64,000 nt of DNA from Persicaria tinctoria. Taxonomy: Eukaryota > Streptophyta > Magnoliopsida > Caryophyllales > Polygonaceae. The stretch covers positions 16,202,688-16,266,687 of the forward strand of contig JBANSL010000013.1 in NCBI GenBank assembly GCA_037127255.1, in the 5' to 3' direction. The position numbers were made by a program, and so were the translations under genes. Shown one piece after another: positions 6,882-33,529 of this stretch. The notes below the pieces were generated by a model. The model was given only the letters and a program-made list of their open reading frames with translations, had not been told where the DNA came from and did no database searches. Each line of letters begins with the position of its first letter. Position 1 is the stretch's first letter.

Positions 6882-6886
6882 GCACC

Positions 6887-7667
6887 TGACGAAACCAACA
6901 ATAAAAAACATCTGGATAAGTATAAAAATAAGTCACAACGATAAGCAAAAATAATAAAAAGTCATCACAGAAGTCACCCCAGATAGTTATCAAAATCATC
7001 CGCGGATAAGCATCCAACAGAAAACCATCACTCACATAAGTCATATCATCCGTGGATGGAAGAAAGGGGCACGTGTTGGACATGCCCACATCCCACGAGT
7101 TGGACACATGTCAAACAGCAAACCCCATGTGGCGAATCATCTGAAGATCACCCGTCACCTATAAAAGCGAAAACAAACATACAAAGAAGGGACTTTTGGA
7201 CGGCAAGGGAAGGGAAAAACAAGCGGATCTGGATCGAATATCCTGAAAAGAGTAAAACTGAGAGAGAGAAAAGAGAGAAAATGAGATAAAGATGGATACG
7301 CCCAGAACTCTTTATCAGGAGAAGGAACTGTTCTGCGGACAAAAATCAAATCCATCCGTGGATTGCAATATTGAACCCATCTTTGCCCTTTGAAAGCCCG
7401 AAGTAAGAATCAAGAATTTGTGGTTGTTGAATCCTAAGCTAGCTAACAGTGACAGGTAAGTGATTGATTCCCACTTCGTCTGAGGAAACCTCTATAAGGG
7501 GATAATCTCTTAAAGCCTCTAATAAAATTATTCCCGTGGCATAGGTTGGGCCGTATCGATTATTTCGGTATGGGTCAGTTAAGCCCGTAGGGAATATTGA
7601 AGGCCCCATTGGGTTTATTCCCGGGTCCCACTAAAAATGGAGGCCTTTTTTAGTTCGAGGTTCGTCA
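6887..7667 (+). repeat. 5' LTR of the Gypsy element
   Basis: This is a 781 bp LTR with TG...CA ends and a 9 bp imperfect terminal inverted repeat. A TATA box, TATAAAAG, lies at 7160-7167 about 500 bp before the LTR end. Directly after it, TGGCCCCGTCTGTGAGAACC (7669-7688) is the probable primer binding site. It resembles the TGGCGCCGTCTGTGG type seen in plant Gypsy elements; I do not assign the tRNA. Confidence 0.93.
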
Positions 7668-7860: not shown

Positions 7861-7896
7861 GAGTCTTTGACTTGACAGAGTTACAACGCTGAAAGA

Positions 7897-9101
7897 ATGA
7901 GAGATAATCAAAACAACGCGACACAAAACATGAGCCAGGGGATCCACCAAGATCAAGAGGCCTCAAGTATGTACGTTCCGTTGACACCTCAACTCGATCC
8001 AGAGGGTGAAATGGGAGATCAGCGCCACGATACCCCTCCGCATCACTATTACAATCAGCACGGAGCAGAAGGAGACTACATTCCTCAGAATTTCTGGTAT
8101 TATGAAGTTCATCATGGGCAGCCTAATCCCCTACAACAAGAACAAACACAGTATTACTATTATGATCACTGGGCCAGAACTCGCGTCAGCAGGGGAATAT
8201 CCACCACAGAGAGCAACGTGAAAATTTTGATAGATATTATACTATGTATGACAACCCAGGAAACATGAACTACGACTTCCAGGGTCAGGCAATGCCGCAC
8301 CAAACATGGCGGGATGATCAGTGGCAGCATGAGAACAAACACTGACGCGGAGAGAGATCCACGGACGTTTCTACCTCCATAAAATCTGACTCAGCAGATA
8401 AAAGAGCAGAAGGGCCGGCGATCCTCCCATCTGTGTTCACCAGAGAAATCTGTTCCGCAACAGTACCAAAAAGATGGAGAGATGTGGGCCTTATGAAGTA
8501 TGATGGAATAACTGATCCCAAAGATCATCTCTGTCATTTTACAACCGTGATGGGGATAAATGAATACAACGATGCTATGTTATGCCGAACTTTCCCCTCA
8601 ACCTTGACAAAAATCGCCCTCACATGGTTCACTAACCTGCCAAAAAACTCCGTGACCAGTTTCGCCCAGCTGTCCCACATCTTCACATCCCATTTTGGAA
8701 GTGCTCGGTCGCGGAAGAAGACCATGCTTGATCTGAACTCGATCAGGCAAGGAGCTGGGGAAACACTGGGACACTTTTTTACTCGATTCACCAGTGTGGT
8801 AGTACAGATCCCCAACTTTAATCATGAATCGGCAATCATCATACTCATGGGAAATTTGGCAGAAGGAGATTTCAAGACATACTTGTTTCGGAAGAAGCCA
8901 GCCAGTTACGATGATTTGAGGGAACGAGTGTCAAGACAAATCGAAGCTGAGGAGGCGGCCCATCCAGCTCAAGAGCAAACACATGCAATCAGGGCTTTTT
9001 TGGGAAGCTCGCCGGAAAAATCAAGAAAGAGAAAGTTAAGCCGCCCAGACACCAGTCAGAAGCGGAAGTTTTTCGTCCCCATCGCGACGAAATACACATG
9101 A
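7897..9101 (+). pseudogene. Gypsy gag
   Basis: An ATG at 7897 opens a Gln/Tyr-rich N-terminal part that stops at 8268. The retrotransposon gag domain follows in another frame from about 8433: GLMKYDGITDPKDHLCHF, a typical TWFTNLPKNSVTSFAQLSHIF block, and GETLGHFFTRFTSVV. It ends at the TGA at 9099-9101, which overlaps the ATG that opens the next frame. Coding then continues in that frame with an Arg/Gly-rich tail (around 9355-9400, RGRGRGRRGRGG), which looks like an RNA-binding segment; I see no CCHC zinc knuckle. At least two frame breaks make the gene inactive. Confidence 0.85.
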
Positions 9102-12100
9102 ACTCTGAAAAGGGCCAAGGGTCTCGTCCAAGGGAAGACTATCCACGGTCTTATCATCCAATGGAAGACCATCCGCGGTCTTATCATCCAAGAGAGAACC
9201 TCTATAGGAATCAAGAGCTGAGGTATCCACCGCGGAGAGAAGATCGGCTCAATCAGAGACCCGATTGGGAAGTCCATGACCCTAGACCCGATGGCCCCCA
9301 CCATCGACAGAACCGTTACCAAGGACAACAAGATCAGCGCAGAGATCCCCCATTTTATAACCGAGGAAGAGGCAGGGGACGGAGAGGGCGCGGAGGTAGA
9401 CACAACCATGCACCCACTATGCAAAGATCTGTTAATCAGGAAGGAGCTCGAAGACCAGGAGAAGGCCACATACCAGAACCCGAGGGTTTCATCAATACCC
9501 TCGCTGAAGGATACTCCATGGCGGGATCAAGTAGACAAGAGAAGAAGAACTACGAGCGAGAGGGAAGGCAGCCGCCGTCCGCGTCAAGCAGAAAAATCTC
9601 TCTGTCACAACATGAAGATATATCTTTTTTGCCGAAAGACGCTGAGGAAGTAAGGATGCCGCACTCAGAGCCTTTGGTCATCCATGCTCAGATAGCTGCC
9701 AAGACAGTCAAAAGAGTCTTTATTGACACTGGTTCGTCCGTTGATATTTTATCATGGGAAGCTTTCTCTCAGATGGGGATCTCCGTGGCATCATTGAAAC
9801 CTTACTCAGACACGTTGATTACGTTCTCAGGAGGAGAAGTGCAGGTGGCAGGAACGATCGAGTTGACAGTGGTTTTAGGAACAACCCCAAAAAGGCGCAT
9901 GGAGAATGTCGTATTCACAGTGGTAAAAGTACCAACCGTGTACAATGCCTTATTGGGACGCGTCTCGCTCTATAAATTTCAAATGATAGTATCGATCTAT
10001 CACTTCGTCGGAAAGTTCCCTTTACCGGGAGGAGGAGTAGGTGAGGTTCGCGACCAACAACCAGAAAGCAGAAGTTGTTTTTTAACTTCTATCAAGAAGA
10101 AGAAAGAGGTAATGTGTATTAGCGAAAAATGTGAATCCATGGTGGGGGACAGTGGTCCGTTGGAGCTTTCGGAGGCAGAGCTTGAAGTTAGATTGACAGA
10201 AACAAAGATACCAACCACGGACGAAAGGATTATCTACACGCCTTTTCCAAACCCCGAAGAGAAAATTTATATGGGGCAAGCGTTAGAGCCAGAAGAAAGA
10301 GATCGGGTCTTGGAAATCATAGCAAGGTCAAGAGATGTTTTTGCATGGACTCTGCGAGACCTTTTAGGAGTCCCGTCCACAACTGCTTTGCATACTTTAA
10401 GGATCCGTCCAGGAACGAAGCCCATAGTGCAAAAGAAGAGAAAAATGGCCCCCGAAAAGGCATTCGCGACAAAAGAAGAAACTGATAAACTGTTAGAAGC
10501 ATGATTCATAGAAGAAGTGGAAGATTCGGATTGGCTCTCAAATGTGGTTCTAGTGAAAAAAGTATAATGGAAAATGGAGAATGTGCATTGATTTCACCGA
10601 TCTTAATAAATCCTACCCCAAAGACAGTTACCCCTTACCATCCATACACGAACTTGTCGACGGAACCGCGAGTAACAAGGTCCTCAGTTTTCTTGATGCT
10701 TATTCTAGGTACAATCAAATAAGTCTGGACCGCGTCATGCCTTTTGGACTTAGAAATGCAGGAGCTACGTTTTAGGGAACCGTTGATCGAATCTTTCGCA
10801 AACAGATTGGGAGGAATGTGTCGATATATGTGGATGATATTGTGGTTAAGAGCAAAAAAGCAGAAGATCATGCGGCAGATCTGCAAGAGACATTTGATTC
10901 CCTTCGCAGAGGACTGAACCTGAACGCGGAAAAATATGTCTTCGGGGTTGATTCTGGAAAGTTCCTTGGTTTCATGGTCAGCCATTGGAGAATTGACGTA
11001 AACCCTGAAAAGGTTGTGGCTATCCAAAATCTCCAACCGCCGCGGACGATCAAAGAATTACAGTCTTTAAACGGAGCAGTAAACTACCTAAGCCGATTTT
11101 TCTCATGTCTGGCGGACAAATCATTACCTTTCTTTGCTTTACTTAAGAAAAAGGGGCCGATACGGTGGACTCCAGAATTACAGAAAGCGTTCGGGGAGTT
11201 AAAAGTTTTCCTATCAACACTCCCCTCTCTGCAGCAACCCGAGAAACAAGAGGCTCTACACCTGTACCTATCAGTTAAAAACATTACCATCAGCGCGGTC
11301 TTGACGCAAGAAGAGAAGTACCCTATATACTACATCAGTCGTGTGCTACAAGATGCCGAGACACTGTATGAACCAGTAGAGAATATGATTTTATGTCTGG
11401 TATTCGCGGCAACAAGGTTGAGACCCTACTTCCAGGATCACGTCATTAGAGTAATGACTGACCTACCTTTGCGACAGATTTTCCACTCCCCGTGCTTGTC
11501 TGGAAGGATGATGAAGTGGGCAGTTGAGTTGATAGAATTTGAGATTGAATACATCCCACGGCGGGCGCTACTGGCTCAGACATTAGCCGATTTCATCAGT
11601 GAAACGAGTTTTGAACTAAGCGCTCAAACAGAAAAAAGCGAGTGGACACTCAAGGTAGATGGTGTGGCCAACAAAGATGGATCCGGAGCTGGGGTTACCC
11701 TAACTGCACCAAATGAGCAACAGTATAACTACGCTTACAAACTGAATTTTCAATCCACGAACAATGAAGCAGAGTATGAGGCCCTGCTCGCGGGCCTAGA
11801 TATAGCTTTGATCAAGGGAGCGAGACAAGTATCAATTTACACCGACTCAAGGGTGATGGCGTGATAGATAACAGAGGAGTATGGGGCCAGAACCGGACTA
11901 ATGCCTGACTATCAAAGAAAACTGCAAGGGTTGTCAAAAGCGTTCTTGAGTTTTTGTTTGACAGTGATTTCTAGAAATGACAACCAGCAGGCAAACGCGT
12001 TGGCTCAAATGGGGGCAGTTATGCCCAAAGAAGTAGGGAAAGAGGTTGTCCTCGAAAGAATAAACAGTCGCAGGCTTATCCAAGAAGTCTATCAAGTCCA

Positions 12101-13340
12101 GGGAATCGAGGAAGGGGACTGGAGGACACCGCTCGCGGACTATCTGGGTAAGGGCATTTTACAAAAAGAAAAAGACTCGGCCAGGAAGGTGATCGCAAAA
12201 TCCTCTCGTTTCACCATCAGAGAGGGGAAAATCTACAAAAGGGGCTACTGCCTCTCGGACTTGCTGTGCATACCAATTGAGGAAGGAGGTCTTGTCATCA
12301 AGGAATTACATGATGGAGTTTGTGCACATCACCAAGGGTGGAGAGCCTTGGTAGCAAAAGCGATCAGACTAGGATACTACTGGCCTACTATGAGGCGGGA
12401 TGTCCAGAATTATATCCAGAAATGTGACGCATGCCAGAGGTTTGGAAATCTGATGCATCGCCCTACAGAACCGATGAAAAGCATATCTGGAGCTTGCCCA
12501 TTTTCTGTTTGGGGAATGGATATCCTTGGTCCATTTCCAACTGCCCCAGGACAATTGAAGTATGTACTTGTCTTAGTAGACTATTTCACGAAATGGGTAG
12601 AAGCCGAAGCAATGGGACTGATCACCGCGGAAAAACTGAGAAGGTTTTTGTGGAAGAACATCATCTGCCGATTTGGGGTGCCTAACTCAATAATCACAGA
12701 CCATGGGCCTCAGTTTGATAGTGAAGCAATCAGAGATTTCTGCGCATGATTGGGCATAAACTTCAAGTTCTCATCCGTGGCCCATCCACAGACAAATGGG
12801 CAGGCGGAAACAACCAATCGGCAGTTGTTGCATGGAATACAGAAAAAACTTGGAAACACGGCAAAAGGACGATGGGCTGAACTTCTACCATTAGTTCTAT
12901 GGTCCTACCGCACATCAGTAAAAACCCCAACCGGAGAAACCCCATTTACACTAGTTTATGGAATGGACGCGGTCATTCCAGTAGAAATGTTGGTCCCCTC
13001 AGCACGAATCCTTGCATACAACCAAGAAACCAATGATGAAGCACCGGAACTCGAACTCCATCTTATAGAAGAACGCAGGATGGCAGCAGCCCTGAAAGAA
13101 CAAGAGTATAAGAGGCGCATGTCCGGATACCGAGATAGACGAGTTCGGCCGCGACACCTCCAGAAAGGAGATTCAGTGCTACGACAAGCTACCACAGGAG
13201 GAAAACTAGACCCAAACTGGGAGGGGTCGTATGTAATCGTGAAGGTGATCCAAGAAGGAGCATACAAGCTTAGCACCCCCGAAGGCACCGTTTTGAATAA
13301 ATCCTGGAATGCAGATAATCTAAAGAAATATTATGTGTAG
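9098..13340 (+). pseudogene. Gypsy pol: protease, reverse transcriptase, two RNase H domains, integrase
   Basis: The parts are: protease with VFIDTGSSVDIL (near 9716-9750); reverse transcriptase with MCIDFTDLNKSYPKDSYPLP (10581) and the YVDDIVV catalytic motif (about 10827); a Gypsy-type RNase H around 11260-11480; a second RNase H-like domain starting WTLKVDGVANKDGSGAG at about 11643; and integrase with an HHCC zinc-binding region (about 12308-12438), DILGPFP, and HPQTNGQAE (about 12784). The frame ends at 13340 with WNADNLKKYYV, a typical Tat ending. It is dead: stops at 10502, 10773, 11862-11867 (two in a row) and 12747, plus a frameshift near 10565. All the stops fit C-to-T or G-to-A changes. 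Confidence 0.93.
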
Positions 13341-13432
13341 TAACCAAGGCTTGTAAAGAACGGAAACCTTAGTCGCCCCCGCAAAAGTTAAATAAAGCGG
13401 TTAGCGGGCGCTTTTATTATTTTCCTTCAGAA

Positions 13433-14180
13433 AAGTTCTTGAATAAGACCCAAGAACGCTGGAGCTTGGCTCCGCGTCGGGCCTCCGATCGAAGCAATTC
13501 TCGGAGATGAGTTCTTGAATAAGACCCAAGAAAACTGGAGCTTGGCTCCGCGTTGCGCCTCCGATCGAAGCAATTCTCAGAGAAAAGTTCTTGAATAAGA
13601 CCCAAGAACGCTGGAGCTTGGCTCCGCGTCGGGCCTCCGATCGAAGAAATTCTCAGAGAAAAGTTCTTGAATAAGACCCAAGAACGTTGGAGCTTGGCTC
13701 CGCGTCGGGCCTCCGATCGAAGCTATTCTCGGAGATGAGTTCTTGAACAAAACCCAAGAACACTGGAGCTTGGTTCCGCGTCGGGCCTCCGATCGAAGCA
13801 ATTCCCTTAGATGAGTTCTTGAATAAGACCCAAGAACGCTAGAGCTTGGCTCCGCGTCAGGCCTCCGATCGAAGCAATTCTCGGAGATGAGTTCTTGAAT
13901 AAGACCCAAGAACGCTGAAGCTTGGCTCCGCGTCGGGCCTCCGATCGAAGCGATTCTTGGAGATGAGTTCTTGAATAAGACCCAAGAACGCTGGAGCTTG
14001 GCTCCGCGTCGGGCCTCCGATCGAAGCAATTTTCGAAGATGAGTTCTTGAATAAGACCCAAGAACGCTGAAGCTTGGCTCCGCGTCGGGCCTCCGATCGA
14101 AGCAATTCTCGGAGATGAGCTCTTGAATGAGACCCAAGAACGCTGGAGTTTGGCTCCGCGTCAGGTCTCTAATCAAATTA
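13433..14180. repeat. Ten-copy 76-bp tandem repeat inside the Gypsy element
   Basis: Units begin GTTCTTG at 13435, 13511, 13587, 13663, 13739, 13815, 13891, 13967 and 14043, and as GCTCTTG at 14119: exactly 76 bp every time, no indels, with scattered single-base differences. Each unit contains the inverted repeat GTTCTTG/CAAGAAC with a 9-base gap, a second short hairpin GGAGC-TTG-GCTCC, and CGATCG. The array starts about 90 bp after the pol stop codon. Because no frame has a stop, it shows long antisense open frames, which I take to be incidental. Confidence 0.97.
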
Positions 14181-14352
14181 TTTCAAAATTTTGAAATTAA
14201 GTTTTCATAAGTCTTTAGAACGCCTAAACCCTTTATTATCTTAAAAGTTGCAAGCCGTGATCTAGCAACTAAACATAAGATAAGCAACAGATGACAAAAG
14301 TACGTCAGCACATTCAAGCAGTCGACCGCTTAAAAAACATACAAACACCAAC

Positions 14353-14857
14353 TCATGCCCACCTGGGTCTAGCCGGGATTAGACGAGTCCTACCTTGACT
14401 CAAGCGAAATCCATTTGAAGGCGGACCCCCTGATTGGGGAGAAGCCCATTCAGCATCCACCTCATCTCCCACAGCATCCAAAACCTGAACCTCAAAACGA
14501 TTACCTCCTCTATGAATAAAATTCACAGAAGAACCAACATTAATGTTGTGCGACTCAGCAAAATCGTTCCAACCGCCTCTCAGAAAAGGGACCCCATAAT
14601 CGTCGCATATAACTTCCACCGAGAAGTCATAAAGGATCCTAGTTGACAAAAGAATGCTCCTAGGGAGATCCGGACCTAGCTCATCCTCAAAGCGTAACGG
14701 CAAAGACTAGCAAAGTACGAAGAAGAGAGAATATTGAGAAAAGATAAATTTAAAAGAAGAGAAACTCAACAAACAAAAAGCTAACCAGGCCGCGGAGTTG
14801 CTCAGGAAAACTAATACGCTCAAAAAATGACCAAGCCGGTTGAATAGGAGAAGGCAT
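14353..14857 (-). CDS. B3 DNA-binding domain protein carried antisense in the Gypsy element (copy 1)
   Basis: Two exons on the minus strand, 14857-14786 and 14706-14353, join at GT-AG sites in phase 0 and give 141 aa with no internal stop. Exon 1 encodes a short leader ending AWSFFERISFPEQLRGL. Exon 2 encodes a B3-type fold: LPLRFEDELGPDLPRSILLS, a DFSVEV strand, GGWNDFAESHNINVGSSVNF and NRFEVQVLD, matching the B3 pattern of GW..F....v..G..v.F.....F.V. B3 domains bind DNA in plant transcription factors (ARF, ABI3, RAV, REM). It is opposite in direction to pol. I infer DNA binding from the fold only; the target and expression are unknown. Of the four copies it looks the best preserved. Confidence 0.75.
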
Positions 14858-15360
14858 GTTGAAAAGGAGAAAATCAAGTTCAACACACCTCCATGCCCTC
14901 TCTTTATACAGAACACTCTGACTATACTAACGTGCAGCACAGGAAGAGACAGAAGCCCAGTGGATTTGAAAGGTCATTCACTAAACCTAACAACTGGCGC
15001 ACCATGCACGAGACGAAAAAAAACACGATTGTTTGAAGATAAATTTGGGGTACCCATGAATAACATATCGTGACAAGATTGTATCGAAAAACTGAACCAC
15101 GTAGCTGACATGCATGATCTTGAAAATCCCCCAAAGTAAAAACCAAAAGTTTGCAGTTAACAGGGGTTATGGCCAGCATCTCGATTACTCCCTCTTGGAA
15201 AATAAAAAACTCGCATCCAAAAAACGACCCAGAAAGTAAACCAGTTTGAGGGCTAAAACATATACTATCAAACACCACCCCAAACACATCCGCTGACTAA
15301 AAAGGTCAATAAACAAGTTCTAAGCTTTGCTTTATTAAACACAGACATAAGAGACCAAGC

Positions 15361-15906
15361 TCAAAAACCATTTGAGGCTAAGCCATGAGAGGAAGGATCG
15401 TTGTGATTAACCTCGCGCTCTCCTCCACGAGAGTCCACCACCTGGACTTCAAAACACACCTCACCCATATGAGTAAAGATCATAGAAGCCCCCCTCTCAA
15501 AACCGTGCGACTCTACAAAATCTTTCCATTCGCGGCCAAAGTAGAGAAGACCACAGTCCTGGCGTTCTATGCAAACCGAGAAATTACGTAATTGATAAGA
15601 AGAAAGTAAGACTCGACCAGGAACAGCGTCCTCATACACTTCTTCACATCTGAGTGGCAGCAGCTAAAAAATAGAAAAAGGTAAAGACAAGGAGAGAATT
15701 CGCGAAGAAGATATGGAAATTAGACGTGAAAATCTTACCAAATGCGAAAATTGCTCAGGATAATCAATTGCCTGGAAGAAAGCCCATTGAGGTCCTCGCT
15801 CAGAGGTCATGTCAACCCTAAATGCTAAAGGAGGGACTATAATGGATCCTCGCATCTCAAGAAAAGCAAGGGGAAAACAATAGTTTTTTCTTTCTTGTCC
15901 CATCAC
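15361..15906 (-). CDS. B3 DNA-binding domain protein carried antisense in the Gypsy element (copy 2)
   Basis: Two exons on the minus strand, 15906-15739 and 15663-15361, join in phase 0 at GT-AG sites and give about 156 aa with no internal stop. The intron lies at the same point as in copy 1. Exon 1 ends QWAFFQAIDYPEQFSHL. Exon 2 begins LLPLRCEEVYEDAVPGRVLL and carries the B3 core REWKDFVESHGFERGASMIF and CFEVQVVD. The start at 15906 is the longest choice; an internal Met at residue 18 or 33 would also fit. It is a paralogue of the neighbouring copies at 14353 and 16788. Confidence 0.7.
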
Positions 15907-16175
15907 TCACGAGGAAATAATCAATTAAATGGAGAAGAGGTGCATGCATGACGCGCAACAAGTAACACAGTAGCACAAAGCACGCGTCCTCTCTTTTCTT
16001 AAATCAAAATTCATTTTATTGACCATCTCGCCGAAACCCAACTAACTTCTCAAAAGAGGCCCTTAAAGCGACCAAGATTGATTCGGGAAAGAAAAACTAA
16101 ATAGATTACCCTTCGACAAAAGGCGATAAAAACGAGGACAAAAAACATCACTCGGCAAGTATAAAACACACAAGA

Positions 16176-16541
16176 ATGACCAAAGTGATAAACACCCTAA
16201 AAAAAATGGATCCAGGGTTACCACCAACGGCTTTCTATAGGGTCATCATGAGAGAGGAACAACTTCAAACACTCCGGCTCCCACTCATGTATGTCCTAAT
16301 CGATGAAGATGCTCACACTCAAGCCAGGCTCTGGTCTCGCACCAACCAGGAACACGAAGTAAAGGTGGAAAGAGATGGAGACGGCCTGTTCTAGTTGACA
16401 CAGGGGTGGCACGACTTCACACAGGCAAATCGAGTCAATGTAGGATCAGCTCTGATTTTCACCTACATGGGAGATTCCATCTTTGAAGTCGACGTCGTCA
16501 GTCCTGATAGCGAGGAAAACGGAGAAGCGGGATGTCCTTAA
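16176..16541 (+). pseudogene. Intronless B3 domain copy on the sense strand of the Gypsy element (copy 4)
   Basis: A single plus-strand frame from 16176 to the TAA at 16539-16541, interrupted only by a TAG at 16392-16394. It aligns with the three antisense copies: AFYRVIMREEQLQTL corresponds to their exon 1 ending, and RLPLMYVLIDEDAHTQARLW runs straight on where they have an intron. After the TAG come GWHDFTQANRVNVGSALIF and SIFEVDVVSPD, the B3 core. So it has no intron at the shared position and lies in the opposite direction. It may be a processed copy or an older intronless form. The TAG could be a single C-to-T change. Confidence 0.7.
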
Positions 16542-16787
16542 GTTTCTATTTCATGTATCGCGTTACCGTCCCTAGTATTGTGTATTAGGTTTAAAAGGAT
16601 CGAACCTCTTAAAAGTTTCTGCATGTTACCTTTTATTATGAATAATAAGAGATCCCTCTTTAAGCCTATTAAAAAATCGCAAAATATGATAGATAGCGAA
16701 AGAAAGTCATGGTCCCCCTCCAAGTCACTCGCGGAAGTGTAATCCATAAACAAATTACAATCTCTCAAAATATATCATCAGAAAGGC

Positions 16788-17256
16788 TTAGTTTGAACCA
16801 CACGAAGAGGAAACAGAGCTAAGGTTAGCCTCATTATCATTCCCAATCTCGCGACGCGGGCAAACTTTAAAAGAAACATTGCCCCTATGAAAAAACATCA
16901 TGGCACTTCCTATCCCAAGATGATGAAGGGCGAGAAACTCGTCCCATCCGCTGTCGATCTGAAAAAGGTCGTTCTCGCTCCAAGACACAGCCACTGGGAA
17001 GTCGCAAACCAGATAAGATGAAAGAAAAGCCCATCTAAGGGGTAGTGGCCCATATTCAGCCTCAAATTGAGGAGGCAAAACCTGCGCACCAACAAAAAAT
17101 ATAATTCGGAAAAGCTAGCCTAAATTTTCTAAAAGCAAGGGGAAAACTCACCAGTCGAGAAAGTTGATCCTCATTTTCGATCTTTTGAAAAAAGGCCCAA
17201 GGATTAAAACCTCCCGAAGAGATGACGCGTATGAAAACGTAATTAATCGTCAACAC
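16788..17256 (-). CDS. B3 DNA-binding domain protein carried antisense in the Gypsy element (copy 3)
   Basis: Two exons on the minus strand, 17256-17152 and 17081-16788, give about 132 aa with a GT-AG intron at the same phase-0 site as copies 1 and 2. Exon 1 ends PWAFFQKIENEDQLSRL. Exon 2 starts VLPPQFEAEYGPLPLRWAFL and contains DFPVAVSW, GWDEFLALHHLGIGSAMMFF and VSFKVCP, a more diverged B3 pattern than copies 1 and 2. The exact start is uncertain. Confidence 0.62.
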
Positions 17257-17560
17257 ATGAGAAGCAGTGAATATTACAGGAGGATTGGATCCTTAAAAAG
17301 AAAAAATCCCATCTTACGAGCTAAGGACAAGTGGAAAAAGTTTTTTACATTCGGACTAACCTACTCAACACTTGGAGAAAGATCAAAGGATTAACAGGCA
17401 AAAATATACAGAAATACGAAACTTCATCCAAAGAGGTCTCAAACCCAACTTCACAAAAAACGAATATCACATAAAAGCGCCAAAAAGGAACCAACACAGG
17501 TTCTCAAGTCCAGAAAGGTTTCATTTCCAAGTTACCAACCAAAGCTAAAAACATCGAAGA

Positions 17561-20283
17561 TCAAATTGCTGTGGTCATCATTTCAATTTCATCGCCAGCA
17601 TCCTCGGCATCTTCATCCTTAGAATATGACTCTTCCGCGACCATCTCCTCCTTTGAAAGCCCCCATTCGACACTGGACATGCTTGGCTCAAATTTCTCTA
17701 AGGATACTCCAGGTTGAGCTGCCGAACGTACCACACTTTGGTTAATCCCCGCGACCATCTCCTTCCGAAAGTAGCTAAAACACTTTTCCTTTAAAATACT
17801 AGCGCCTTTTGGAGTCTGGCGACAAGCTTTGGCTACAGAAGATAGAAATGATCCACCAGCTTCAGTTTTAACCCACTTGGAAGACAAATAAGCTAAACTC
17901 TCTGGACATCGAAGCCATTGAAGAGCCACATCTTAGTCTGAACGCGCTTTAATATTGTCAAGCTCCTGTTTGGTAATAGATTGCTCTTCACGAAGAATTG
18001 AAAAATCTTCCTCTAACTTGTCAATACTGGCCTGCTTTGCTTGAAGAAGCTCCCGCGAACACCCTTCTGCAACCTCAAGTTCTTTGACACGGGAGTTGAC
18101 AACGTCTAATGAAGTTTTCAGTTCGTCGCGTTCTTTCTTCAAAACCTCCATGGCCTCTTTTTGTATCTTAAATTCTTCATGAAGTTCCGCGGATCTCTTT
18201 TTAAACTTCTCAACCGAAGCTGGGTCACCAACGGTGTTCCCAAGGATCAGCAGCTGGTGAGACAGTCTCTTAATCTCCTCATCCTTCTTAGCAAGGCTCT
18301 CTTCGCCACACACCAAACGTCTTTCGACGTCATGTTGAATCACCCTCAACTGAAACCAAAAACAAATCGAACAAGATAAAGAAATGAGAAGCCAGAGTCA
18401 AACCGTGTTGGATTTTTTCTAAAAGATAACAATATAAAAGATAACGCAAAAAATATAAATAACTTACCCACTGGTTAAGACGGTCGAAGTTAGTTGAAAT
18501 ATTAACAACATCCAATCGCTTAATATACCCCTGCTCGGGAAAGCAACGCTTCTTGATGGAAAAGGCAAGAACTCTCAGATCAACCATCCCAAACCTGGAA
18601 TGGGAAGCTTGCGAAGAGTCGCTTCACCCTCAATAAAGAGCCCCGTTTCATCCGCGGCAGACGGCTCAACAATCATGTTAACTTTCCTCTTCTTTTTGGA
18701 GGTTTCAGGAGCAGATTGGCGAACACGTTTTTCCCGAGATACAAGAGCCAATGAAGAAGACTCTACAAGAACGCCATTTTCTCCTGCTATGGTCATATCA
18801 ATGATCAAAGCCGCCTCAGGGACTGAAGGAGGAACATAAGGGTCACGGATGTCTGAACTTTTCTTCTTCTTCTTTTCAGATCTCGCCTTATGACGCTTCA
18901 AAAGGGAGTCCAGATCCATTGTATCTGAATACAAGAACACCCAAAGATAATTAAACTATCAAAACTAACCAAATATAGAACACAAATGCTAAAACTCTCA
19001 AAGAAATGATGAAAACAAAGGAGACACCTAGTCGCGGATGAGGAAGACTCAAACCAGCCATCTCAAGACGCAATGCAGAAAGCATCTCAGACCAAGGAAA
19101 CCTAGGTTTATGGGAGAGTGATTGTTTAAATTCGGAAAGATCAGGAACAATTGGTTTTTTCACAGGGCAAAAATACCCTGGAACGGTCCGACAATTAAAA
19201 CCTTCCCCAGACTTGTCGCGGACCAAGAACCACTTGTGCTTCCAATTCGGTTTGCTAGAAAGTCTCTCCATATAACCACAGCTGGAATTACACTGATAAA
19301 ACCTTGAGTCTTGAGTCCCCTTTTTCAAGGAAAAAATACTGAACATCAACTTCAAGGTAGGAGTAACCCCGCTCCTTGCACCTTATAATAAAACTAGTAA
19401 AAAACATCCAACCATTAGGGACGATTTGGGCAGGGCTTAAGTTGTACTCATTCAGAAAATCCGCGAAAAAGGGGTGCAAAGGAAGCCGAAAACCCTGAGA
19501 TAGGCTGGCCGCGTAGACAACTAGACAATCTTCGTAAGCATCCAAACAACCTCCACCCATCTCAGGATGGAAAAACTCCAGATTGGCAGGCCATGGAAAA
19601 ACTCGAGAAATAGCATCAAGATCGGCCAACCCGAGCAAAGTTGTGCATCCCCTGATTTCTTCAACAGGAGATCACCACGGATGAACTCTTTCAGCTACTA
19701 CAGGTGGACGGTCAGAGGGAGGCGGATGAGGACAAAAATCTCCACGGAAAAGACAAGTATCCAAATCTTTTAGGACAAATAATGGGGTATCCAAATCAGA
19801 CAAATTTTCTTTAGAACGAATCTTTTTCGATTTTTCCGCCACACCTACAAGAGGAGCCTCATAAGGAATCCAAACTTTTTCCACTTCTTGACCAGCGTCT
19901 ACCTGATTGGAAGTAGAAGAAAGGTCCGCGTCTTCAGGAGAATGGACTTCAGACTCACCTACGTCTTCAGAATTTTCATCTCTCGAGCAATCCTTCGAAG
20001 AAGAAGAAACTGTGTAAGGAGAAGAATAGTAATCTGGGTCAGTACGCTTCCTACGCCTTCTCACCTTAATAGGGTTGCATGTAGGACCAACCCAATTTGG
20101 AGTCGACGTAGACTTGGAAGAGGATGACTCTGACGAAGTACTGCAGGAACCAGTAGTAGAACTCTTGGGAGAAAGAGTCTCCTGAGGTTGACGCGGATGA
20201 GAAGATGAAGCGACATCACCTCTCCACCCTTCTCCTCTTTCAAAATCATCCAACGCATTGTGCACTCCGCTGAGGTTAGCCAT
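17561..20283 (-). pseudogene. Antisense multi-exon gene resembling the 'putative gypsy type transposon' (PF04195) family
   Basis: Minus-strand exons 20283-19028, 18924-18468 and 18349-17561 join at GT-AG sites in matching phases, about 830 codons in all. Order: an acidic, Ser-rich N-terminus with a basic RRRRKRT patch; a domain with LPLHPFFADFLNEYNLSPAQ, NGWMFFTSFIIRC and NWKHKWFLVRDK, which resembles PF04195 as I remember it; Lys-rich patches (KKKKKSSD, SKKKRKV) that look like nuclear signals; a long coiled coil (18349-17940, heptad-rich KKDEEIKRLSHQLL); and an acidic tail. Breaks: TGA at 19674-19672, a one-base frameshift near 19330, one near 18590, and TAA at 17935-17933. Molecular function is unknown. 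Confidence 0.65.
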
Positions 20284-20817
20284 TCCCAAAGAACTAAAGA
20301 AAATCATATGAAGATTTACATACGCGGAACAAAATTTCGACCAAAGGAAAAAACAAATGCATAAACAAAATTCCAACCTAATTCTCGATCTACCCATCAG
20401 GAAAATCGAGGAATTGAAAAGAAAAAAAAACCTAGAAAACAACTCAAAGCAAGAAGAAATACCTTGAATTTCTGAAGAACTTCGCCGGAAACTTCAACCG
20501 AATAGCTATCGGAAACCTAAGACCACCACCGGAAAACCAAGCTGTAGATAAGAACAAAAATCTTTGGAAAATCAGAAGAAGATAAATGTGAAGTGAAAAA
20601 GAACGGAACGGGGTAACTTATAGAAAACTTACCGACTGTTGAACTTCCAAATAGAAATGGGCCTAATGGGCCCTAAATGGGCCAACACAAGGAAACAAAA
20701 AGACCATTATCGACAGGATAACACAAAATTGAAACGACCACAGAGAATCAGATGTTTTATAAAAAATTTATCGGCCCGCGCCAATCCCGGAGGGAATCAA
20801 CCCAGCCCGAGGAGCTG

Positions 20818-21030
20818 TGACGAAACCAACAATAAAAAACATCTGGATAAGTATAAAAATAAGTCACAACGATAAGCAAAAATAATAAAAAGTCATCACA
20901 GAAGTCACCCCGGATAGTTATCAAAATCATCCGCGGATAAGCATCCAACAGAAAACCATCACTCACATAAGTCATATCATCCGCGGATGGAAGAAAGGGG
21001 CACGTGTCGGACATGCCCACATCCCACGAG
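20818..21030 (+). repeat. 3' LTR of the Gypsy element, first part
   Basis: The first 213 bp of the 3' LTR match 6887-7099 with three differences, all places where this copy has CpG and the 5' LTR has TpG or CpA. The LTR stops abruptly after CCCACGAG, where the terminal-inverted-repeat element begins, and resumes at 32957. Confidence 0.95.
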
Positions 21031-21185
21031 GGACCCTGATTCTCTTACCCAAAATTTGGGTTACCCAAGGGTATTTTTTGGTCATTTTGAAAATATACTA
21101 AAAAATAAAAAAAAAATAAAAAAAGATAAATCAGCTTTTTCTTTTTCTCCTATAAAAAGGCTACACCCTAGGGCTAGACTCCCCC

Positions 21186-21472
21186 TTCTAATTTATTTAT
21201 TATTTTCTTTTCATGTAAGACCAAGTTATAATTCAACTTATTTTTTTTTATAATTCTTTATTTTTTAACTTGGTGTAATTAATGAACACAAGTATATTCA
21301 CGTTTTTTTTATAATTATGTTTATTTCACTTATATTATAAAAGTCGGCAATATAATTCGCGTTTTTTAACACTGTGTAAGTTATTTATTTGACCTTTATT
21401 TAAACGGGATCGAATTATCGTACAATTTTGAGTTCGCCTAAAAATAATAATTTAAACTGTCGTTAATGGTCC
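21186..21472 (+). repeat. Subterminal repeat, copy A
   Basis: This stretch (TTATTTTCTTTTCATGTAAG ... AATAATAATTTAAACTGTCG) recurs at 26302-26582 and in part at 25964-26137, all in the same direction. Shared marks are the 'GGTGTAATTAATGAACA' block, 'ATTTCACTTATATTATAAAA' and the TTTAACAC-GTGTAAGTTA block. It is a dispersed repeat within the inserted element. Confidence 0.75.
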
Positions 21473-21660
21473 GCTTTTTTATAATAACTAAACTTACTAA
21501 AAAGCTTTTTCCACAAATGTATAATATATATTTTTAGTTTTAATACGAAAACATTTAAAAATAATAATAATAACAGGCATCGGCTTATATATTTCTTTCA
21601 AATAAGAAAACATTTAAGAAACAAACTTGTATTTCTATTTAAAAGATTTTTTTATATGTC

Positions 21661-21840
21661 TGGAAGCGGCTTACCGATAGGCCTGCGGGTATTGTTCCGA
21701 AGCCATAACAATAGAATTTGAAAATAAAAAACTGAAGAATAAAGCAATAGCACTATCTGGCCCATTGGTATTATTCCCATCCACACTACTCTCAGGTCAT
21801 GTGTTCAACTTTCAGTTTCGTGAAAAAGAAATTATTTTAA
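21661..21840 (+). repeat. Subterminal repeat pair with 31975-32100
   Basis: GCGGCTTACCGATAGGCCTG and the following 'AAGCCATAACAATAGAATTTG...ACACTATC-like' stretch reappear in the same direction at 31975-32100 near the other end of the element. Fragments of the same motif (GCCTGCGGGCAATTATAATG) occur at 21842 and 21938. Confidence 0.6.
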
Positions 21841-22269
21841 GCCTGCGGGCAATTATAATGACAGAAAGACATTATTTTCTGAACAAATGTATATTATATA
21901 TTTATTTTTAATACGAAAATAATAGACAGCGGCCTGCCGATAAGCCTGCGGGCAATTATAATGACGGGCAGTGGTTATAATATGCGGTGGCAATATGACA
22001 GTAGCTGAAATATGAGATAACATGTAACGGAAGCAATCTGAAACACAAACAATCTACTGAAGCAACAATACCTCAGAACGTGAGAAACAAACAATCAGAA
22101 GCAACAATATGAAGCAAACAGACTCAAAAAGGTCTTGAAACTAAAATGATAGTTGAGAAGAAAAAAAAAGTCATTTGAGGTATATATTCATTATTGATCT
22201 ATATGACAAAATTATCTATGCTAATCTATCATTTCTCCATGAAAAAACATAAAGTTTAAAATTAGAGAA

Positions 22270-22343
22270 AGCCTATATGGGATTCGAACCCACATCACGT
22301 GTATAATAATGTACACATTGCTCTTTCATTGAGCTAATAGACT
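22270..22343 (-). other. tRNA-like cloverleaf sequence, probably a decayed tRNA or SINE head
   Basis: The 74-base minus-strand stretch folds as a tRNA. The 7-bp acceptor stem (AGTCTAT with ATAGGCT) pairs fully, the D stem GCTC/GAGC is intact, and the T arm has the internal promoter B-box form GTGGGTTCGAATCCCAT. The anticodon arm has an enlarged loop, so no anticodon can be read with confidence. I take it as a pseudo-tRNA or tRNA-derived repeat rather than a working gene. Confidence 0.5.
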
Positions 22344-22527
22344 TTAAAAGATATTCATAAACCCATAACTCTTCCATTGAAATAAAAGTTGTCATTGTGA
22401 ACATGTTCCTTTGCTGTCAGAATTGTACCTCTCAATTTTACTTCCCAGTTTCAGTTCTCAATAGCTTCACTTCTCAATGTCTTCAAAGAGCAAAGTTGTT
22501 GTACCAATCCACCACCACTTGCAGGGT

Positions 22528-22957
22528 TTTTTTATGAACACATCCTCCATATAAGGGAAAAGAAAAAAAAACTCAACGAAATTCTAATGCCACTAGTTAC
22601 AGCACACAAAAGGTGGCTCTAAACAAATGCAAGACCATGTTAATCAAACAAGAACACAAATCCTACAAGGCTGGAAAGCCTAAAAGCTAACTCATGAGGA
22701 TGGACCAAGTTAGTCAATCTGGAATTCCTAACTAATGCTAGCCTTAGTCCTGCAACACATCTCTTGGATGTATTATTGATACTTAGTGTGTCTAAACTAA
22801 GAAAACTATATACAACTCTTGTACAGATCCACACTCCACATGATTAAGACTTTAATAGTGCTTCTTGCACTTACTCATTTCTCATCTCACATGATGACGA
22901 GTCAGGACTCATGGAATAAAAATAGCCATTGGTGAAGAAACATATTGAATCCCTGTA
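22528..22957 (+). repeat. Direct duplication, copy 1 (with 23364-23833)
   Basis: About 430 bp, starting ATGAACACATCCTCCATATA and ending near GAAACATATTGAATCC, is repeated at 23364-23833 with small indels. The copies sit about 840 bp apart inside the inserted transposon. No coding function is seen. Confidence 0.88.
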
Positions 22958-23363
22958 TTATTGATGTTTTAATCACCGAGAATCCACTACATGCATTTTC
23001 ATTTAACACTTCTATACTGGTAGATGGGCTTGAGCCAAGCAACTATAAGGTTTCTAAGTTTACATAAAATATGTCAATACACACCCAAGTAACCGACTAA
23101 CCAAGTCCCAGGTTAAACAGGTTTTGGTCCCATCCATCGTTCTAGCAGTAATCAAACACAATGTGAAAGCATAAAAAGGATACTACAAATCCCCATGAAA
23201 CTGACAGTTCTCAGTTTAACAAGCAAACTGAGTTAATATAATGAGTTGTGTTGGACAACCACCAATTTGCAAATCAGTATACGGTAGCAAACTTAGAATA
23301 CTAAGATAAAAACATACATGATCACAGACTAGGATTTGGAATTTAGTTGATAGGGAACTCATG

Positions 23364-23833
23364 TTTTTTTATGAACACATCCTCCATATAAGGGAAAAGA
23401 AAAAATAAACTCAACAAAAATCCAATGCCACTGGTTACAGCACACAAAAGGTGGCTCTAAATACATGCAAGACCATTTTCCTGTAAACTGAATCGAACAA
23501 GCACACAAATCCTACAAGGCTGAAAAGCCCAGAAGCTAACTAATGAGGATGGACCCAGTTAGTCAATGTGGGATTCCTAACTAATGCTAGCCTTAGTCCT
23601 GCAACACATCCCTAGCTTGGATGTATTATTGATACTTAGTGTGTCTAAACTAAGAAAACTATATACAGCTATCCACACTCCACAAGATTAAGACTTTAAT
23701 AGTGCTTCTTGCACTCACTCATTTCTCATTTCACATGTGCTCAAAAAAAAATCTCATCTCACATGATGACGAGTTGGGACTCGTTAAAAACAAAAATAGT
23801 CATTGGCGAAGAAACATATTGAATCCTATCATT
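23364..23833 (+). repeat. Direct duplication, copy 2 (with 22528-22957)
   Basis: Second copy of the block described at 22528. It carries a short extra CTAGCTTGGATG-type insertion and a duplicated CTCATCTCACATG segment near 23750. Confidence 0.88.
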
Positions 23834-24108
23834 TTCTTTTTAGTTAGCTCTTGTTGTGTGCATTTTGTTTAGACATTTTTCATAGCAATCCTCGGATTCT
23901 TGTGAAATATTAACAAAGCACACTGCCTCTTAAGCATTACCACTTACCAAGAGTCCTAACCTATGTAAGATATAAAATTCACAACCCTAACCTACATAAG
24001 AATACTGCATAAATGAAAAGATTTAAACAATCAGACATCTGAATCATCTAGTGCAGCTTAACACTCATCAAGTCAAATTGAACACTTAATCTGAGTAAAA
24101 GCACTTAC

Positions 24109-24259
24109 TTCTGCACCCCTATACGGTATATTTTCTCAGCCTCCTCGAACTTCTTCATCTTTTCATAGTAAATGCTTGGTAAAACAAATATCGTTTGACA
24201 CCAATGCGCTTCGCCTACATAGCTCGCAAAATCGCCTTAGGGTCGTCCACGTAGTCCAT
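24109..24259 (-). pseudogene. Captured exon of a BUB1/BUBR1 (Mad3-BUB1 homology) gene
   Basis: On the minus strand, between AG at 24260 and a GTAAGT donor at 24108, the exon reads DYVDDPKAILRAM, then a TAG, then AKRIGVKRYLFYQAF. After a frame loss it continues YEKMKKFEEAEKIYRIGVQK. This resembles the Mad3/BUB1 homology region 1 of plant spindle-checkpoint kinases, a helical repeat domain that binds kinetochore proteins. The splice sites are kept, so genomic DNA rather than mRNA was captured. The stop and the frame loss make it non-coding. The family call is from memory of the motif pattern. Confidence 0.6.
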
Positions 24260-24469
24260 CTAGTATAACCAAAGCCAGCGGAGTCTCCAAAGTAGAAAAG
24301 CAATTGCAATCAGGAAACGATAATTAAATCCATCGAGTTCGGAATAAGGCAGGCTGAGAAACCCCAAATTAGAAACATGGAACTGAAAAGGAGGGCTGGA
24401 GGGGGCTTACGAGTTCCAACCAGATGCGAATGAACCTCAGATCGTTTCGCTCAGTCAAAACCTCGTATA

Positions 24470-24960
24470 CTCACCCGTTCGAGGTTAAGCGACGGAGTGA
24501 GTCTGAGGTGGCTAGCTAGGGCTTCGGATTTGGGATTGAGAGGCTATGGAAGAAGGGGCGACTGGGCGAGGGCTTTGGATTTGGGAAGGATATGTGAGAT
24601 CGAGAAAGTTTAAGATCGGGGAGGAAGATGAGGCAAGGAGAAGGCGAGATGCGAATTAGAGAGGAAGATATGGCCGTTTGAGATCGGGCGAAGAGGGAGA
24701 GAGGTGAAACTCGAGCGACTTGACGTCGGCCAGTGAAGAAGAGAAGCAGATCTGTGATTATTACATCGCATTCAAGGCCACACGAGTGAGAGTGAGAGAG
24801 CAGGGAGACGGCAGGGAGAACGGGAACAGAGGGAGTGAGAGGCGCAAAGAGGTGATCTAGAGAATGAACAGCGAGATGGAGGCGCAAGGAGGGAGATCTG
24901 TGTGCTACTGTGGTCGTTGAAATTAAAGTCTCAACCGTTAGATTAAAGTTAATCAACGGT
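24470..24960 (-). other. GC-richer gene-leader-like stretch upstream of the BUB1-like fragment
   Basis: This stretch is markedly richer in G and C than its AT-rich surroundings. It lies upstream (minus strand) of the captured BUB1-like exon and looks like the 5' end or first exon of a plant gene. An open frame over 24516-24956 exists but resembles nothing I know. It could be the captured 5' region of the same or another gene. Confidence 0.35.
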
Positions 24961-25439
24961 TCTCTGGCTGGTATGGAAGATATTTATTGGTTGATAAGAA
25001 GAGCACATGGATCACCCTTTTCTACCGTTAGATACGGGAAAATGGTTGGTACAGATCGATTCTAATTTATATCATTTTTATATTTAAAATAGTGTATATA
25101 TAGCAATATAAATTTTAAATATATTATTATAATTCATTTAAAAAAATAATAATTCGATTTAATAAATTATAAATTTATTATTATAGCTCATGGAGTAATA
25201 AATATTAATAAATAGAAACCTAATATTTAGAATAGTTTTATATGTGTAGGAACTTGTATAGATTAGTTCAACCGGAAACTATGAGTTTATACAATATAGA
25301 TCTTATTACTATTAATATGGGTTTAGTTAGTTGTATGTGAACTTATATTAGTATAGTTTTATATATGTGGGAACTTATATAAATTAGTTCAACCGAAAAC
25401 TATGAGTTTATACGATATAGATCTTATTAGTATAAACTT

Positions 25440-25800
25440 ATAAGTCTTGATCTCAATCTCAAATCTCGATCTCAACCATTAACTTGACTTCAAATATCAA
25501 ATCTTACTCAAAATTCTAAAATATAAAATCTCAATATTAAAGTTCGATCTTGATCTTAATATTGATTTCAAATTTCAACGACAAATCTCAAATCTCGATC
25601 TCATACTTAATCTCAATCTCAAATACCAACTCTCACTCTGAATTCACAAATATAACATATCATTATCAAAAGTCAATCTTGATCGTAATATTGATTTCAA
25701 ATCTCAATAGAAATTTCTTAAATTGCGATCTCAATCTCAAATCTCGATCTCAAACTTAATCTCAATCTCAAATATCAAATCTCACTCTCAATTCTCGAAT
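25440..25800 (+). repeat. Irregular TCAATCTCAAATC/TCGATCTC tandem array, copy 1
   Basis: The block is built from short variants of 'CTCAATCTCAAAT' and 'CTCGATCTCAA'. A second such array lies at 29580-29900 and starts with the same 'CTCAATCTCAAATCTCGATC' sequence. Both are followed by a telomere-like CCCTAAA stretch within a few hundred bases. Confidence 0.8.
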
Positions 25801-25906
25801 ATAAAACTATGTTAATCAAATTAAACTTCCTCGTGATGAATCGAGAAAAATATATTTAATAAACATTGCATTATAGTTTAAATATTTGATCAAACTAAAC
25901 TAAAAT

Positions 25907-25938
25907 GCCCTAAACCCTAAACCATAAACCCTAAACCC
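25907..25938 (+). repeat. Telomere-like (CCCTAAA)n remnant
   Basis: Three to four degenerate copies of the plant telomere unit CCCTAAA lie in a row, with CCATAAA as a variant. A weaker one is at 30282-30330 after the second TCAATCTC array. Confidence 0.7.
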
Positions 25939-25963
25939 ACGCTCTAGAGCCTTTCAGCTAAGA

Positions 25964-26582
25964 CCTAAGTTATCATTCAACTTTATTTTTTTTAATAATT
26001 CTTTATTTTTAACTCGGTGTAATTAATGAACATAGTTTATAATTCACGTTTTTTTTATAATTCACATTTTTTATAATTCTGTTTATTTCACTTATATTAT
26101 AAAAGCCAGTCTTATATTCATGTTTTTTAACACAGTGTAAGTTACTTACAAAATATTAAATTTGTGTGGGCAGTATAATTATTTTGGGTTTAAATTTACA
26201 TGCAAAATTATTTTACAAAACATTTTTAGGTGTTATACCTCTATTTTGATATGTTTATAAATTTATATCTTAAAGAACCACATTTTAGACCCAAAAAATC
26301 ACTCTCAATTTATTTATTTATTTTCTTTTCGGCTAAGACCTAAGTTAATTCAACACTTTTTTTTCATAATTCTTTAATTTTAACTCAGTGTAATTAATGA
26401 ACATAATTTATAATTCGCGTTTTTTTATAATTCTATTTATTTCTCTTATATTATAAAAGTTGGTCATATATTCACTTTTTTTAACATAGTGTAAGTTATT
26501 TGACCTTTATTTAAACAGGGTCAAATTATCGTAAAATCCCGAGTTCGCCCAAAAATAATAATTTAAACTCTCGTTAATGGGT
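25964..26582 (+). repeat. Subterminal repeat, copies B (25964-26137) and C (26302-26582)
   Basis: Both copies match the element's left subterminal region at 21186-21472 in the same direction (CTAAGACCTAAGTTA ... GTGTAATTAATGAACATA). Copy C runs the full length to TCGTTAATGG; copy B is shorter. Confidence 0.75.
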
Positions 26583-26908
26583 ATCGAGTTACCATAAAAT
26601 CACAAAGTCGATCAAATATACCGAGAATCCTTTATGTTAAATTTCTTATTTTATAAAATAGTCAAATTTATGTTGAGTAAGTTTTAATTAAAAATTATAT
26701 ATAATTACAATGGTTTTGTCTACCACCTGTTTTTTTCATAATAAATAGAACCCACATACAAAACACGTCACAAGCACAGCATGGACATTGTCACGTTGCA
26801 CAAACAAAACTCACATATATACTAAACAACCTACACAAAAAATGTGGAAGGCAATGAGCCTGGGTGTTGATACGAAGACCATGGGTCTAATACGCAGTGA
26901 GTTACCAC

Positions 26909-27725
26909 CTGATGCATAGAGCTAATACTAAGAGCATGTGTGTTATTTCTTTTAGGAAGTGGAGCAACGCCAAGAGTGTGTAAATGCTGAAAAAAGAGGA
27001 TAACCATAATTAGTTCAAAGTGAATGCCCGGGATGACTAATGCAAAAATGTGGGAAGGCAAGAATGACAGTTTACCTTAACAAAGAAGTGGTATTTTCTA
27101 TCACTCAACGGGTCCAACATAGAGCCACAGGTAAGTGGATCTACACACAACTCGTACATGAGCTGCATGTTTTCAACACTCAAAATTCAGGATAGAAAAC
27201 TAATTGTGCAATCCTCTTAAACAAAATGGACACAATGCTAAGTACTAACTTGGAAGCCAAATTCATGGAGCAAACCATTGATTTCAGGCCTCAAAAGTTT
27301 GTTCAGGATTTCAAGAATAACCTTCAAGCAAATGCAAGTTCAAATAACCTACATAAATTTCACGACAAAAATGCAGGAACAAACAAGATAAAGCATTTGT
27401 ACCTGTAATTAAATTTTGGATGCAGAACTGTAAGCTCAATAGATCATGGTTTGTACCTGTAATTAAAATTTGGCTGATCCCTTTTGGCTGCACAAAATAG
27501 ATCATGGTTAAAAATTGTGTTTATCAAGGGATCAACCAATATAAACAATATGCTGATTTTAAATTGCACCTGCGGTATAAGAAGTAAGAACCCCTGGATC
27601 ATCACTACTATTCTCTACTGTTTGGCTCTCTTCTGCTCTTGACTCTAGACAGGCAGCATAATCCTCAACCAAAGAGTTTGCAGCATTGGACTTAAACAGA
27701 AACTGTACAAGCCCAACCATCCTAG
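26909..27725 (-). pseudogene. NUP205: Captured NUP205 gene fragment (four exons with introns)
   Basis: Minus-strand exons appear in the order of the plant nucleoporin NUP205: about 27725-27590 (VQFLFKSNAANSLVEDYAAC ... SSDDPGVL), 27322-27250 (VILEILNKLLRPEINGLLHE), 27162-27076 (LMYELCVDPLTCG ... KYHFFVK) and 26986-26909 (HLHTLGVAPLPKRNNTHALS ... SSMHQ). The last two are flanked by clean AG and GT splice sites. NUP205 is a scaffold nucleoporin of the nuclear pore inner ring. Between exons 1 and 2 much of the expected coding is deleted or scrambled (only an ISQ remnant near 27470). So this is a genomic, intron-containing capture inside a transposon, not a working gene. Confidence 0.82.
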
Positions 27726-28619
27726 AGCTATAAAAAGATAAGATGTGAGTTAACTTTTTCCAATTCCATATAACATGACTGAGAGAATTTAAAAAATATA
27801 TAATCAAAGTTATGAAGGGATACTCTAGATACACGGAAACAAAGTATGTCCTGATTTACAAATTTAACTAATCACAAAAATATTTGAAAAAAGATAATCA
27901 AATACCTCACTGCTCATGAGTTTGATAGAGCAATCTTAATAAGTGGCTCAAAATCAGACTGAACATACTCCAACAAAGCAACTACAAATTTTGAAACTTA
28001 AAATATGTTAAAGAGTTAAATATGAGAGACAACTATAATGGGATATAAGATAATTCCAATAATTCACAAATTGCCTATCTTGGCTATAGCATATCATTTT
28101 TAACACCTCCCTGAATTGATTTGTGAGAACTATCTAATCTTAAATGAATACAATGCATAAGTCTGCAAATAGACTGAACAAAGGCCCCTCCCCTCACAAC
28201 AATTGCAAGGTTTTCGGGTTTCTCTGGCAATCTGGCATGTCAACAGAGTTTCAGGAAGGTCCTAATGTCCTATATCCAGCCACAAATTCATACAATTACT
28301 AGCACAGACCTTGAGAGTAAATTTACTCATACCTTTTCAACTCTTATTTCAAATTCTATGCTATTAAAATGCAAAGCAAGATTATAGTAATTGAAAGCTA
28401 GCGGGTAAATTTACTCAGGAAATTTTCAAGAACAAAAACACTAGAAAGCCATCAACCAATACTAGAAAGCCATCAACCAACAACACAAACGCGAGAAACA
28501 AATTCGAAATCGAAAACCCTAACCACTTCGACCTGTGCAAGAGCAGATTTTACCAAAATTGAAACTTCAGATCGAAAATTCTTTACCAAAATTGAAAACC
28601 TAGATCTGAACCAAAGGAC

Positions 28620-28830
28620 CCTAAATCAGATTTGAAGCGTCAATGGAGGAGAACTAACCATCCTTGGCTCTTGGTAGCGTTCATGGGCTAGATTGAGTAG
28701 TCGTCTCTGCTGGGTATAGCCTCCGACGTCGGGTGGAGGAGGAGAGGGAGAGTGTTGTTGGAAGCGACGTCTGGGCAGTGTCAAAGTCGGGAGGCGGCCA
28801 TGGCAGTCGAGAGAGAGAAAGTGGTGGTTG

Positions 28831-28872
<42 letters not shown>

Positions 28873-33524: not shown

Positions 33525-33529
33525 GCACC

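Follow-up and report, generated by a model that had tools for sequence, protein, structure and literature searches.

Why should a plant retrotransposon carry a cluster of small B3-type genes between its pol gene and its 3′ long terminal repeat (LTR), and what might they do for it? The case arises in a 64,000-nucleotide stretch of the Persicaria tinctoria genome (contig JBANSL010000013.1, positions 16,202,688 to 16,266,687; hereafter the window), within an element that its sequence assigns to the Retand type (Tat, Ty3/gypsy). An earlier note on this DNA had described three minus-strand, two-exon B3 frames, sharing an intron at the same codon position and placed in a Tat-type element after pol and ahead of the 3′ LTR, and each of these points held when we located the exons, the introns, the LTRs, the target duplication and the order of the domains. 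B3a (14353-14857) has exon 1 at 14857-14786, a 79-nt intron and exon 2 at 14706-14353, and B3b (15361-15855) has exon 1 at 15855-15739, a 75-nt intron and exon 2 at 15663-15361, with an alternative in-frame ATG possible at 15903; both are open throughout. In B3c (16788-17259), exon 1 ends at 17152 and a 70-nt intron leads to exon 2 at 17081-16788; a search of this gene for an in-frame ATG found none. All three introns are GT..AG, 70-79 nt long and in phase 0, and they fall at one common alignment position.

The family is antisense, as the note had it, for these three genes but not for a fourth. B3s (16206-16541) lies on the plus strand, head-to-head with B3b, and is intronless with one in-frame stop; its alignment with the other three genes is gapless across the intron position. 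TATAAA occurs at 14903 on the minus strand by B3a and at 16160 ahead of B3s. Roughly 350 bp (15859-16205) separate B3b from B3s and contain a weak 27-nt inverted repeat (70%), so placed that the interval is possibly a shared promoter or the trace of an inverted duplication. When we looked around the whole B3 block for inverted repeats of at least 18 nt, a sign of a nested transposon, this weak pair was the only one.

That the genes encode B3 domains was borne out by profile matches and by fold, with the qualification that the antisense members score below the curated cut-off of the Pfam B3 family (PF02362), 30.1 bits. Once spliced, B3a reaches 28.2 bits (1.8e-6), B3b 27.2 (3.7e-6) and B3c 19.7 (8.4e-4), while B3s, its stop read as X, reaches 32.9. 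Two relatives recovered by the profile searches described below, P0001 and P0003, also lie above the cut-off (36.1 and 32.9 bits). Within the window, the four frames match each other by tblastn with E values from 2e-20 to 6e-5, the next best match elsewhere being 0.055, and identity among the four paralogues is 25-42%. The AlphaFold model of P0001, an intact relative of B3s, adopts a B3 fold (predicted local distance difference test score 71, with one of five models clearly best), and Foldseek returned VRN1 and At1g16640 as its best PDB matches. Exon 2 of B3a alone also had At1g16640 as its first match, more weakly (1.7e-3). The models of P0001 and B3a exon 2 thus point to a predicted B3 fold of the REM type.

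The introns suggest where the genes came from. A search of the plant's own 1.68-Gb genome gave 6136 B3 candidates, and many of the 150 that were scored start at profile position 16-18. Five host loci with such a start were picked by hand, and in all five the B3 match begins directly after a splice acceptor, in phase 0, at x-[IV]-P; the introns of the three antisense element genes precede S-L-P, L-L-P and V-L-P. The conserved REM-type intron inside the B3 domain therefore has the same position and phase in 3/3 antisense genes and 5/5 host loci. Published work describes a splice site conserved among REM B3 domains, and also intronless REM genes in Arabidopsis (PMC2688026). Because the antisense introns stand at the host REM position, a host REM-type gene would have been captured as DNA, intron included, and then multiplied; judged by this intron record, the B3 genes trace back to a REM-type gene of the host that entered the element together with its intron. 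The Retand-type element would have taken up the gene in antisense, and multiplication would have yielded at least four genes. Antisense copies would have kept the intron since the spliceosome is blind to an antisense intron in the sense genomic RNA, while the inverted copy, B3s, would have lost it precisely through the RNA cycle. An intron kept in antisense and lost in sense is what passage through spliced genomic RNA would be expected to leave.

In one respect the element genes depart sharply from their presumed source. The B3 domains of B3a, B3b, B3c, P0001 and P0003 have isoelectric points (pI) of 4.7-4.8 and net charges of -6 to -8, and their exon-2 parts alone have a pI of 4.6-5.0 and net charges of -4.0 to -7.0. 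At all five host loci, REM exon 2 is basic (pI 8.6-10.3, net charge +2.0 to +8.0), and the corresponding At1g16640 segment has 13 K/R and 12 D/E. With net charge as the proxy, the basic DNA-binding domain of REM proteins is absent from the element genes and their relatives. The note had spoken of small DNA-binding proteins; the B3 fold agrees with this, but the acidity of the domains beside basic host REM exon 2 makes it uncertain and argues against ordinary DNA binding. Because the domains have turned acidic, we propose that they act through protein contacts, and the charge reversal suggests that the element encodes regulators of an unusual kind.

Are the genes maintained? Profile searches of a 5.8-billion-protein collection yielded five relatives, each on a short contig (531-798 bp); three belong with B3s and one each with B3c and B3a. 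All five (P0001-P0005) are open frames, P0002 and P0004 representing exon 2 and P0005 a 61-residue piece. Identity to the window copies is 88% for P0001, 67% for P0003, 86% for P0002 and 78% for P0004, and P0005 differs at 1/59 positions. Viral, prokaryote-genome and plasmid collections held no usable relative. In two of the five comparisons (P0002, p 0.038; P0004, p 0.018), the replacements were more conservative than chance would give, which, together with the open frames, lends modest support to constraint. The note had also seen a hint of constraint in the lack of stops in B3a and B3b, and this we drop: the divergence of the LTRs (36/781 sites) predicts, as an estimate, about one stop in the four genes taken together, which matches the one present, so the absence of stops from those two carries no weight.

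The host element itself is, from its domain order, its antisense Transposase_28 gene and the array after pol, of the Retand type. Its domains run gag, protease-like, reverse transcriptase (RT), RT_RNaseH, then RVT_3/RNase_H, then integrase; a second RNase H is thus present between RNase H and integrase, and RT is broken in this copy. The second RNase H is a Retand criterion common to Ogre as well (PMC6317226), and further Retand hallmarks are an antisense Transposase_28 and an array beside pol (PMC6317226, PMC11963269). Between pol and the 3′ LTR, the interval 13341-20817 (7,477 bp) holds a tandem array, the four B3 genes and, in antisense, a Transposase_28 (TRP28) gene. The array (13434-14169, plus strand) comprises 9.7 copies of a 76-bp unit and 10 CGCGGA sites; a single 76-nt unit, taken as single-stranded DNA, folds better than 200/200 shuffles (z -2.9). 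The TRP28 gene (17561-20493, minus strand) survives as several frame pieces, with its PF04195 match at 19671-19288 (9.5e-11). It encodes basic clusters RRRRKR and KKKRK(V), which, the latter as KKKRKV, we take to be nuclear signals.

A candidate target motif also emerged from the element. With the LTRs and array left out, no other of the 2020 hexamers in the internal region is as over-represented as CGCGGA, which occurs 23 times against 2.4 expected at order 1 or 4.2 at order 2 (p 1.5e-10, or about 3e-7 when multiplied by 2020). In the remaining window it is not enriched, ranking 244th and 284th of 2079 hexamers. Coding pieces totalling 7,143 nt contain 18 sites, whereas synonymous-codon shuffles average 3.4 and none of 2000 reached 18; the excess is present in gag-pol and in TRP28 when each is taken alone, and the sites fall on both strands and in several frames. 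Under an order-3 background with LTRs included, the excess is weaker (29 against 13.9), and those 29 sites in the element compare with 1-12 for the other CGCG hexamers counted. Palindromic sites of the ATCCGCGGAT type occur three per LTR; all three are exact in the 3′ LTR, and in the 5′ LTR the site at LTR position 112 is exact and those at 162 and 468 have one change each. Two post hoc observations concern another motif: the element has 12 RY elements (CATGCA), and CATGCATG, presumably an RY-type B3 target, stands at 15109-15116 and 15943-15950, upstream of B3a and B3b, respectively.

Capture of B3 sequence by transposons also appears elsewhere in this genome. A group of repeated short B3 frames, considered as possible Retand-borne relatives, was rejected because none of its 13 hand-picked loci (L009-L021) matches the window element; they belong instead to a family of Mutator-like elements (MULEs) with a short B3 exon fragment, open over 85 aa in most of the rows chosen. 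L009 encodes a MULE transposase domain (PF10551, 5.3e-16), and all 12 other loci have a 0.8-5.1 kb block in common with it at 92-98% identity. In this genome a transposon has thus captured B3 sequence on a second, independent occasion, so such capture does happen here.

How, then, might the genes serve the element? We tentatively favor, as quite possible though short of probable, a reading in which the captured and multiplied REM-type B3 genes act with TRP28 as self-directed accessory factors that keep the LTR active or unsilenced. Both kinds of protein would be nuclear accessory factors directed at the DNA of the element itself, where CGCGGA is spread through body and array and the palindromes lie in the LTRs. 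The acidic B3 proteins would work by protein contacts, with TRP28 or by engaging or decoying host B3 or chromatin silencing factors; another protein, most simply TRP28, would read CGCGGA. The outcome would be an LTR that stays active or escapes silencing, an effect like that of VANC proteins in VANDAL transposons. That the antisense genes have a regulatory role in the nucleus has been proposed before (PMC7264820, PMC11963269). The more specific version, a two-part anti-silencing system in which charge-inverted B3 proteins imitate host B3 silencing factors or serve as decoys for them while TRP28 reads both CGCGGA and the LTR palindromes, strikes us as decidedly unlikely in that full form. Several observations weigh against the favored reading. 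CGCGGA was chosen after scanning all hexamers, making its statistics post hoc; CCGCGG, ACGCGG and CGCGAC exceed their shuffles too, if less strongly; and the B3 block is poor in CGCGGA (2/22 sites, p 0.03). An exon-2 profile of B3b found no relative in the protein collection, and since the short contigs show no surroundings, linkage of the other relatives to Retand is only inferred. Replacement conservatism was not significant for P0003 (0.14), P0005 (0.33) and P0001 (0.52). Codon-position conservation among the four paralogues, considered as a sign of purifying selection, was set aside because codon-shuffled alignments gave the same result, 14-44 of 60 controls reaching the observed value across six paralogue pairs.

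The last result equally suits the view that the B3 genes are passengers, a host REM gene array carried without function whose acidity and divergence reflect drift. The stop count, which by the estimate from LTR divergence fits neutral decay, the missing ATG of B3c, the stop in B3s and the MULE-borne exon fragment all agree with it. Four paralogues that keep B3 similarity at only 25-42% identity, five relatives with open frames (two covering exon 2 and one 61 aa long) and a charge reversal common to all five sequences compared do not, and we consider it rather doubtful. If instead the B3 proteins bound CGCGGA or ATCCGCGGAT in LTR and array directly and so activated or unsilenced the element, they would be closer analogues of VANC. 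The B3 fold, the palindromes in both LTRs, the 10 motifs of the array and the precedent of transposon-encoded binders with tandem-repeat targets (PMC5735166) speak for this, but an exon-2 pI of 4.6-5.0, set against 8.6-10.3 in host REM genes, and the scarcity of CGCGGA in the B3 block make it unlikely. CGCGGA might also serve a host factor, or owe its abundance to biased mutation or composition in the family, with the B3 proteins acting elsewhere, for example in the choice of integration site. Binders of the CGCG box exist among host factors, and CGCGGA is found on both strands within the coding parts of gag, pol and TRP28, with other CGCG hexamers raised as well; its lack of enrichment in the rest of the window and its 29 occurrences against 1-12 leave this explanation improbable.

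The structure of the element was resolved beyond the earlier note, which had lacked B3s, the Transposase_28 domain of the neighboring gene, the exact ends and the split of the 3′ LTR. It spans 6887-33524 and measures 14.7 kb without a nested 11.9-kb insertion. Its paired 781-bp LTRs are flanked by a 5-bp GCACC duplication (6882-6886 and 33525-33529), and the host site is a minus-strand Copia frame that reads through once the element is removed. The 5′ LTR (6887-7667, plus strand) ends in TGACGAA...TTCGTCA and has TATAAA at LTR position 274. The 3′ LTR is in two plus-strand parts, LTR 1-213 at 20818-21030 and LTR 206-781 at 32949-33524, the latter 94% identical to the 5′ LTR, and the later insertion (21031-32948) made an 8-bp duplication (LTR 206-213). 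The termini of this insertion have inverted sequence in common, like TTACCCAAAATTTGGGTTACC, and just short frames are listed for it. A substitution rate of 1.3e-8 converts the 36/781 LTR differences to an age of about 1.8 million years. The differences are unevenly spread (3/213 sites in the first part, 33/568 in the remainder; Fisher p 0.007), perhaps through conversion. On the plus strand, the gag region (7876-9101) has a Retrotrans_gag match in 8346-9101 (3e-13), and the pol region (8951-13340), with protease-like, RT, RNase H, second RNase H and integrase domains, is broken into several open pieces with in-frame stops between them and one unreadable stretch.

What the antisense genes of Retand and Tat elements do is an open question, and here a host origin can be traced by an intron position. 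Given the intron record, the charge reversal and a candidate motif, one can test directly whether plant LTR elements have anti-silencing factors of their own and which DNA is read by which element protein. In its second RNase H between RNase H and integrase, antisense Transposase_28, array beside pol, long pol-to-3′ LTR region and LTR size within range, the element resembles the Retand lineage (PMC11963269, PMC6317226); it differs in its four B3 genes, one of them sense, and in a pol-to-3′ LTR interval of 7,477 bp against 2,933-6,566 bp in a 2025 survey (PMC11963269). That survey examined open reading frames of at least 600 bp, a cut-off by which small spliced B3-type genes would escape, and names no B3 in the portions at hand (PMC11963269).

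In the excerpts of PMC13317346 and PMC10949715 at hand, no B3 gene is named in a retrotransposon; PMC7602945 and PMC13175896, considered as reports of one, concern in the parts at hand the host gene VAL2 and a reference title. Among the matches listed from open-licence papers, with preprints outside the scope, the only other LTR elements with a B3 domain are consensuses from Aegilops tauschii (PMC9289625). These share a B3 domain within LTR-retrotransposons, but the mention, in the text at hand, is one line without lineage, orientation, intron or copy number. Some Ty3/gypsy elements of orchids are likewise Tat-related and have acquired a host-like regulatory domain, AlkB, which is an RNA demethylase and not B3 (PMC9289625). 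Host REM proteins such as VRN1 and At1g16640 share the fold and the conserved intron position with the element genes, which differ in lying inside a retrotransposon and in encoding very short proteins with acidic domains. VANC proteins are encoded by their elements and have targets arranged as tandem repeats (PMC5735166, PMC10398659). The VANDAL MULEs that encode them belong to another element class and use another protein, and the putative window system has its motif in coding parts too; yet both have a short motif that is enriched over the element and in tandem repeats, and both have element-encoded nuclear proteins, the last of these being, in the window, our proposal.
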